Source: Panopea generosa (lineage: Eukaryota; Mollusca; Bivalvia; Adapedonta; Hiatellidae). Taken from it: a stretch of 64,000 bases of DNA. How positions within the stretch are numbered: position 1 is the stretch's first letter; each line of letters opens with the position of its first letter. The notes under the pieces were generated by a model. That model ran no database searches. It was not told where the DNA came from and saw only the letters and a list, made by a program, of their open reading frames with translations. The stretch lies in contig CM055907.1 of NCBI GenBank assembly GCA_029582155.1, forward strand, positions 8,286,501-8,350,500, written 5' to 3'. Made by a program: the position numbers and the translations under genes. Below are positions 44,301 to 47,300 of this stretch, in pieces.

Positions 44301-47300
44301 TATCTCATGAAGTACAGACAAATCTATGTGAAAATACAACTTACTGCACTTGTATCATGAAGTGTAGATAAATCTATGCGAAAATGCAACTTACTGCACT
44401 TGTATCATGAAGTAAAGACAAATCTATGTGAAAATGCATCTTACTGCACTTATCTCATGAGGTACAGACAAATCTATGTGAAAATTCAACTTACTGCCGT
44501 TATCCCATGAAGTACAGACAAATCTATGTGAAAATGCATCTTACCGCTCTTATCCCATGAAGTGTAGACAAATCTATGTGAAAATGCAACTTATTGCACT
44601 TATCTCATGAAGTACAGACAAATCTATGTGAAAATTCAACTTACTGCACTTATCCCATGAAGTGTAGACAAATCTATGTGAAAATGCAACTTATTGCACT
44701 TATCTCATGAAGTACAGACAAATCTATGTTAAAATTCAACTTACTGCACTTATCCCATGAAGTGTAAACAAATATATGTGAAAATGCAACTTACTGCACT
44801 TATCCCATGAAGTGTAGACAAATCTATGTGTAAAAGTAACTTACTGCTCTTGTATCATGAAGTACAGACAAATCTATGTGAAAATTCAACTTACTGCCGT
44901 TATCCCATGAAGTACAGACAAATCTATATGAAAATGCATCTTACTCTCTTATCCCATGAAGTACAGACAAATCTATGTGAAAATGCAACTTACTGCACTT
45001 GTATCATGAAGTACAGACAAATCTATGATAACATGCATCTTACTGCACTTATCCCATGAAGTGTAGACAAATCTATGTGAAAATGCAACTTACTGCACTT
45101 GTATCATGAAGTACAGACAAATCTATGTGAAAATGCATCTTACTGCACTTATCCCATGAAGTGTCGACAAATTTATGTGGAAATGCAACTTATTGCACTT
45201 GTCTCATGAAGTACAGACAAATCTATGTGAAAATTCAACTTAATTCACTTCTCCCATGAAGTGTAGACAAATCTATGTGAAAATGCAACTTACTGCACTT
45301 ATCTCATGAAGTGTAGACAAATCTATGTGAAAATGCATCTGACTGCACTTATCTCATGAAGTGCAGACAAATCTATGTGAAAATGCATCTTACTGCACTT
45401 ATCTCATGAAGTGTAGACAAATCTATGTGAAAATGCAACTCACTGCACTTATCTCATGAAGTGCAGACAAATCTATGTGAAAATGCAACTTACTGCACTT
45501 GTAACATGAAGTACAGACAAATCTATGTGAAAATTCAACTTAATGCACTTATCCCATGAAGTGTAGACAAATCTATGTGAAAATGCAACTTACTGCACTT
45601 TTATCATGAAGTACAGACAAATTTATGTGAAAATGCATCTTACTGCACTTATCCCATGAAGTGTAGACAAATCTATGTGGAAATGCAACTTACTGCACTT
45701 ATCCCATGAAGTGTAGACAAATCTATGTGAAAATGCAACTTACTGCACTTATCTCATGAAGTGTAGACAAATCTATGTGAAAATGAATACATGGAAGCAA
45801 GATTCAAAGTCTGTGTTCGAAAAATACATAGTAAATTTCAAGAAAGTAAGTGAAAGGTTGATATTCACAGCATAAATCGGAAACCTTAACTTTTCATTAA
45901 ATATATAAAAGTCCTCACTGTGTGGTTTCAAGGTAACTTACGTCTCACTTCCAAAGTCTTTAAGTTTTGGACCAGATAGGACCAATATTCGGTGTTGTAG
46001 GTTAGGCTGGGTCATGGGCTATTACAAAATATTTTTGTTTTTATTGGTTAGGCTGGTTCCTGGGCTATTACTAGATATTTCTGTTTAGGCTCGGCTGGTT
46101 CCTGAGCGAGGGTTGTGGGGCTTAAAATTTCTGTCATGTGGGATGGCCTGGTTTCTGTATATGTATATTTCTGTTTTGTAGTTTGAGCTGGTTTCTGTGC
46201 CACATATATTTCTGTATATTTCTCTTTTGTAGGTTTGGCTAGTTCCTGTGCCACGTGTATTTCTGTATATTTCTCTTTTGTAGGTTGGGCTGGTTCCTGT
46301 TCCACATGTGTATTTTTGTATATTTCTCTTCTGTAGGTTGGGCTGGTTCCTGTGTCCAGAGATTCAACACTATGCCATTCCTCTTCTGTGGTACAGACAA
46401 TGTGTGCAACTATGCTAGCAGAAACGACAAATCTTACTGGTTGTCTACCAATGCCCCCATTCCCATGATGCCTGTAGGGGAGACGGAGATTGTACCCTAC
46501 ATCAGTAGGTGTGTGGTATGTGACGCCCCTGCCAACGTTATCGCAGTCCACAGTCAGACACTGGAAATCCCAGACTGCCCCATTGGCTGGTCAGGGATGT
46601 GGATTGGTTACAGTTTTGTGATGGTGAGTTTTATCAGATTTAGTTCTTAACTTGACGAAACCGTACAACAGTGCTTCCAATAAGCAATATTGGGGCGTAT
46701 TTAGGCATTGACAAAAGCATTGATGTCAAAGTAAGTGTTAAAATAAGCATTGGGTATTGACAATCTCAGTGTTGCTTTCCTTATTTTAAATAGAAATTTT
46801 ATTAAAACGCACGATTTGACCCATAACATTTTAAAAAGTAAGTATAGTGTAAAAATTAAGGAGTAAAATACTCGTTTGTAAAAAATGCTTTACCTGATTA
46901 GCTTAGTCAGGGGTCCCGAGTACAAATCCCTGCCCATCCACTGTCTCTGTGATGATTGATGAGGGACATTGTGTCTCATTGTCATTCATCTTTCACTGAT
47001 TCAAGTGGGAAAGTTGTCAGTTACTTGCAGAGATGGATGCACTCGAGTACTGGTTAACCTTCCAGCATCCCAGCAAAGAGTGGTTAGATTAAGCTGGTCG
47101 TCTTTTAGCCCTCAATAGCATAAAAATGAAGATAAATATTCATTGACTTTTTCTTGTCAGAGGTCTTTATTTAGAATGGATGCATAGTAGATGTGATACT
47201 GGCTATTTTACCATTTTAATGGCTCCTGTGACTTTTACACATATGTGTTAAGCTGATTGGTAGTGCAGTGAATAGAGTGTTGAGCACTCTTGCCAGAGAT

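Follow-up and report, generated by a model that had tools for sequence, protein, structure and literature searches.

The window, that is the whole stretch of 64,000 nucleotides of Panopea generosa DNA analyzed in this study (C14:8286501-8350500), is part of an assembly of 1.474 Gb in 39 contigs and has a GC content of 34.9%. Its forward strand carries a collagen IV gene, of which 32 Gly-X-Y coding blocks were called together with an NC1 region (PF01413). A second collagen IV gene (the paralog) was found on the opposite strand, and its NC1 exons are about 130 kb from those of the window gene. Given the opposite strands and this distance between the NC1 exons, the two collagen IV genes are divergent. 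A head-to-head pair of collagen IV genes is the arrangement of vertebrates, which the Panopea pair resembles. The two members of this divergent pair, found in the window and at C14:8198792-8205595 (loci L002, L003, L006, and L007), respectively, have the position and phase of their NC1 intron in common, and the junction of the paralog reads DL G/G K P G S C as judged by eye (here and below, a slash marks the splice junction). The features around the NC1 intron of the window gene are as follows.

42235-42426, forward strand: upstream exon with the last GXY triplets and the NC1 start, ending in ...HHQDL G/gtaagt (phase 1), from a called acceptor.
42427-46336, forward strand: NC1 intron of 3910 nt, by repeat finding mostly minisatellite arrays (42435-42656, 42837-43035, 43125-45785, and then the border array).
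45985-46141, forward strand: degenerate older copies of the border (at approximately 46000, 46046, 46088, and perhaps 46141), recognized by similarity to the exon start and scoring 5.7 (46000), 5.8 (46051), and 3.2 (46088) bits.
46162-46181, forward strand: decoy acceptor 1, TTTTGTAG/TTTGAG, 2.7 bits, from the border alignment and the acceptor matrix.
46182-46232, forward strand: 51-nt unit with a copy of the exon start and the intron end, decoy acceptor 2 (TAG at 46230-46232), 12.3 bits.
46233-46283, forward strand: 51-nt unit with a copy of the exon start and the intron end, decoy acceptor 3 (TAG at 46281-46283), 12.3 bits.
46284-46336, forward strand: 53-nt unit with a copy of the exon start and the intron end, true acceptor (TAG at 46334-46336), 10.4 bits.
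46337-46623, forward strand: true NC1 exon, ending in WIGYSFVM and followed by the donor GTGAGT at 46624 (PF01413, E value of 4.5e-33; gap-free junction against solved NC1 domains).

The NC1 intron begins with the donor G/GTAAGT and ends with the acceptor TCTGTAG/GTTGGG. The score of the donor of the upstream exon was 7.4 bits, which is close to the lower quartile of the 62 called donors. Two features identify the downstream exon as that of a collagen IV NC1 domain, a C4 domain within the exon and an uninterrupted junction with the preceding exon. As the junction DLG/WAGSC aligned without gaps to the human and Drosophila NC1 domains, position 46337 is the true start of the exon.

Minisatellites are frequent in this region. 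For instance, a 26-bp minisatellite at 42435-42656 starts 8 bases past the donor of the NC1 intron and contains no exon bases. The array at 43125-45785 consists of 53 copies of a 50-bp unit. Other long minisatellites in the window are found at 24717-25966 (25 bp, 49 copies), 31788-34543 (57/114-bp units over 2.8 kb), and 55559-56769 (31 bp, 39 copies). The NC1 intron of the paralog (L003:2049-2734) also possesses its own 53-bp minisatellite of 13 copies, which looks unrelated, contains no border bases and is separated from the exon by approximately 350 nt. In addition, sequences resembling a tRNA-derived short interspersed element were noticed by eye at 46880-46960 and at L001:1290-1350, the latter with a B-box-like GGTTCGATCCC.

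The last 175 bases of the NC1 intron and the start of the NC1 exon form a tandem array with a period of 51-53 nt. TRF reported this array at 46162-46354 with a period of 51, 3.7 copies and 88% matches. Anchored at the border, the units end after 46181, 46232, 46283, and 46336, so that their spacing is 51, 51, and 53 nt. The true acceptor TAG (46334-46336) closes the last, 3'-terminal unit, and the authentic border itself therefore belongs to the array. The better-preserved units consist of the intron end (TATTTCTGTATATTTCTCTTTTGTAG or a sequence near to it), the exon start (GTTGGGCTGGTTCCTGT or near to it) and a few extra bases. In the three decoys at 46181, 46232, and 46283, TTTTGTAG is followed by TTTGAG, GTTTGG, and GTTGGG, respectively, so that the 46181 decoy reads TAG/TT and not TAG/GT. 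Overall, AG/GT is present at 46000, 46232, 46283, and 46336 and AG/TT at 46181; the AG at 46046 has been lost and another AG ends at 46051. The original prediction had described tandem copies of this border at a spacing of 51-53 bases. Both its coordinates and its spacing were confirmed, and the border array is real. The decoy sequences that it gave were also correct, and the alignment, which could have revealed units lacking both features, showed good pyrimidine tracts and AG in the decoys. A comparison of the array with a phage collection yielded no match, as expected.

The likeness of the decoys to the true border drops with distance. Over the last 26 intron bases (-26 to -1) and the first 17 exon bases (+1 to +17), the decoy at 46283 differed from the true border at 2 and 0 positions, the decoy at 46232 at 2 and 2 positions, and the decoy at 46181 at 5 and 3 positions, respectively. 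Moreover, the units ending at 46232 and 46283 were identical to each other across the 26 intron bases, while the exon part of the 46283 unit was identical to the true exon (0/17 differences). This mosaic fits turnover by slippage or unequal exchange.

The strength of the decoy acceptors was assessed with a matrix of 60 acceptors. These came from the 62 that had been called automatically in both collagen IV genes, of which two were left out as doubtful (21706 of the window and 51916 of the paralog); the array acceptor was not part of the set. The 62 called exons (32 from the window and 30 from the paralog) were uncurated, and three NC1 acceptors were added for a survey of upstream AGs, which covered 63 acceptors. 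The donor matrix was built from all 62 called donors, including a wrong one at 42280 (the real one is at 42427) and two at -8 in the first pass. Among the 183 AGs in 42430-46400, which comprises the intron and about 60 exon bases, the three with the highest scores were those at 46283 (12.3 bits), 46232 (12.3 bits), and the true 46336 (10.4 bits). By this matrix, the two nearest decoys thus outscored the true acceptor, and the remaining AGs of the array scored at most 5.8 bits. Compared with the called acceptors, each of which was left out of its own scoring, the two decoys ranked at the 73rd percentile and the score of the true site equaled the median.

An AG within 300 nt upstream that scored at least as high as the acceptor itself was found for 8 of the 63 acceptors, including the NC1 array acceptor. 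Among the 41 acceptors with scores of at least 8 bits, the NC1 array acceptor was the only one with an upstream AG of equal or greater strength. Strong upstream AGs thus also occur elsewhere in these genes; what is distinctive here is that the decoys are copies of a good site. For instance, the Gly-X-Y exon acceptor at 37060 (7.5 bits) has a stronger AG of 13.6 bits located 216 nt upstream, which is not a copy of the border. The best branch-like heptamer near the true site, TCCACAT, precedes the true AG by 30 nt and scored 5.3, and those of the three decoys scored 4.7, 4.9, and 4.7; given the slight margin and the rough ad hoc weights, no conclusion was drawn from this difference. Hiding of the decoys by RNA structure was also considered and set aside, as the array folded no better than shuffled sequences (z of 1.09; 83 of 100 shuffles were as good).

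All 16 upstream AGs that were tested (45956 to 46283) led, when read into the frame of the exon, to an early stop. The number of residues before the stop was 17 for 46283, 34 for 46232, and 1 for 46181, and the maximum was 49 (46187). The reading paths from 46283 and 46232 both end at 46334-46336, which is the TAG of the true site, and that from 46181 stops at once. The prediction that a transcript spliced at the nearest decoy would stop at the true acceptor's own TAG agrees with the translation, as does the truncation expected from decoy use. The same prediction held that this decoy keeps the frame; its phase is indeed the same, but the insert is 53 bases long. Taken together, the interpretation given in the prediction was supported in part.

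The well-preserved units carry both intron and exon bases, and the exon bases encode a GSC motif that is also kept in human and fly NC1 domains. Given the conservation of this motif, the exon is likely the source and the intron the recipient. Similar to the window gene, the paralog has an intron at this position and in this phase, and neither gapped nor ungapped scans found a border copy at its equivalent NC1 acceptor. The intron is therefore older than the array. Thus, as judged from sequence comparison, the copying most likely went from the exon start into the intron.

In the window, 22% of the sequence consists of tandem arrays, and in the paralog region 14%, a setting that favors the origin of such an array by unit turnover. 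With 17 of 17 exon and 24 of 26 intron bases in common, the nearest decoy matches the true border far beyond chance. Whether arrays fall on borders more often than expected is a separate question. Terminal units (less 16 nt) occupy 2.1% of the window and 2.3% of the paralog region (33 and 37 arrays, respectively, with a period of at least 10 and with the border array itself counted). Random placement would accordingly yield approximately 2.8 borders with such an array among the 128 borders of the two genes, and one was found. These borders include the doubtful ones, leave out 42280 and contain one acceptor only from the paralog NC1 region; the exons were uncurated, and border copies were searched for within 700-800 nt with a gapped scan that took the best-scoring alignments only. 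An ungapped scan of the 128 borders gave the same single border array. With one array found against about 2.8 expected, nothing demands special selection, and there is no indication of arrays being drawn to borders or of the NC1 array having been favored. A naive null, in which 21% of 1500 random intron positions had a spanning copy, would suggest that borders avoid arrays; it was not used, as exon sequence can be part of a terminal unit only.

Tandem repeats that span exon-intron borders have been named mirages in amphioxus (PMC3087553). They are reported in the globin genes BflGb6 and BflGb9, with Adh3 and two further loci also cited (PMC3087553). Many, but not all, of the amphioxus repeats contain AG/GT, and their units undergo concerted turnover within an array; the Adh3 data and the RT-PCR of these authors suggest that normal splicing is undisturbed, and mirages were proposed as a source of new introns (PMC3087553). 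The units of the Adh3 mirages are 10-72 bp long and show somatic length instability (Canestro et al., 2002, as cited in PMC3087553 and PMC3902484). In lancelet PGBD5, tandem repeats also lie over splice sites, and TnC is cited as well (PMC3902484). Finally, human genes in segmental duplications contain internal tandem repeats at exon-intron boundaries (PMC2812944).

The Panopea array possesses all four anatomical features of a mirage that were tested: tandem units that span the border, inclusion of the authentic border, AG/GT in many but not all units, and a unit length (51, 51, and 53 nt) within the published range of 10-72 and 150-160 bp (PMC3087553). As in BflGb6, the tandemly duplicated sequence joins the last part of an intron to the first part of the exon that follows (PMC3087553). 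Different from BflGb6 and BflGb9, whose units are described as 150-160 bp long with a copy number that varies by haplotype, its units are 51-53 bp long and one haplotype was seen. Similar to the amphioxus Adh3 mirages, its units span an exon-intron border; somatic length instability was described for Adh3. In PGBD5, unlike here, both 5' and 3' splice sites are affected, and resequencing was carried out (PMC3902484). The human boundary repeats likewise indicate that minisatellite expansions can sit at exon-intron boundaries outside amphioxus; different from the Panopea array, which was found in the DNA of one collagen IV gene, they are in genes that duplicated recently and have been associated with new introns and alternative transcripts (PMC2812944). 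The host also differs, as the Panopea assembly is 1.47 Gb, unlike that of the amphioxus host of BflGb6 and BflGb9. The amphioxus genome is approximately 0.5 Gb, or about a third of 1.47 Gb. By its anatomy, the Panopea array is a further example of a mirage and not a new phenomenon. No mirage outside amphioxus was named in the literature searched, which comprised titles and abstract openings outside subscription journals. With a host that is not a lancelet, the array would suggest that mirages are a general by-product of minisatellite-rich genomes rather than a peculiarity of cephalochordates.

We consider it very probable that the array is a mirage-type minisatellite that arose as a passive product of turnover and whose decoys are bystanders. 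The starting event would have been the tandem duplication of approximately 51 nt that by chance included the end of the intron and the first 17-20 bases of the exon. Slippage or unequal exchange would then have turned over the array, leaving copies that are fresh close to the exon and decayed farther upstream, and the true border would be the 3'-terminal unit kept by coding selection. The true site is probably picked through exon definition, by pairing with the donor at 46624, 287 nt downstream. Upstream choices would lead to early stops and the resulting transcripts would be degraded, so that the gene would tolerate its decoys. Some level of decoy use may occur, with two decoys above the true site in score. 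The locus offers a naturally occurring set of nearly identical acceptors within a single gene, with decoys that outscore the true site, as a test of how the spliceosome selects the last among several 3' splice sites.

The decoys could also have been kept as a means of regulated unproductive splicing, which diverts transcripts into early-stop, degraded isoforms and thereby tunes the collagen IV dosage. Two decoys indeed combine a full-strength tract and AG (12.3 vs. 10.4 bits) with an early stop. However, the farther decoys are weaker (2.7, 3.2, 5.7, and 5.8 bits), the same acceptor of the paralog has no border copy, and the two strong decoys may merely be of recent origin, with no sign of conservation, all of which renders this explanation very unlikely. 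Even less likely is a working mirage, in which decoys stronger than the true site would set the productive share of collagen IV and a change in the copy number of the minisatellite between individuals would alter the dose of a basement-membrane protein. It is kept as a reading because two decoys outscore the true site in this matrix.

False expansion of a single border during assembly is a still more doubtful explanation. The array is short, repetitive and known from the assembly only, but substitutions and a 2-nt change in length distinguish its units, which argues against a simple duplication in the assembly, and the older copies have diverged strongly. Incipient gain of an intron or exon, whereby a unit would turn into a micro-exon or a new intron as has been suggested for the amphioxus globin mirages (PMC3087553), has a published model in its favor, together with a 51-nt spacing that equals 17 codons and a 46232 unit that can be read in phase without a stop into the following unit. 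However, translation from 46232 or 46283 ends at 46334-46336, and from 46181 it ends immediately. Within 45985-46336, the highest donor-like score was 4.9 bits (45997), with 58 of the 62 called donors higher, and those inside the intact units all scored at most 3.6 bits, so that we regard such a gain as remote. Least probable among these explanations is recursive splicing, with the TAG/GT of each unit as a ratchet point. TAG/GTT is present at 46232, 46283, and 46336, but in the 46181 unit the TAG is followed by TT instead. Moreover, the GT that follows these AGs makes a weak donor (2.8, 1.9, and 1.9 bits, respectively), with 60 of the 62 called donors higher in a comparison that is rough because the matrix was applied to the sites from which it was built, at least one of which (42280) is a wrong donor. 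A ratchet point requires a strong acceptor directly before a strong donor, and with donor scores of 1.9-2.8 bits the units were rejected as candidates.
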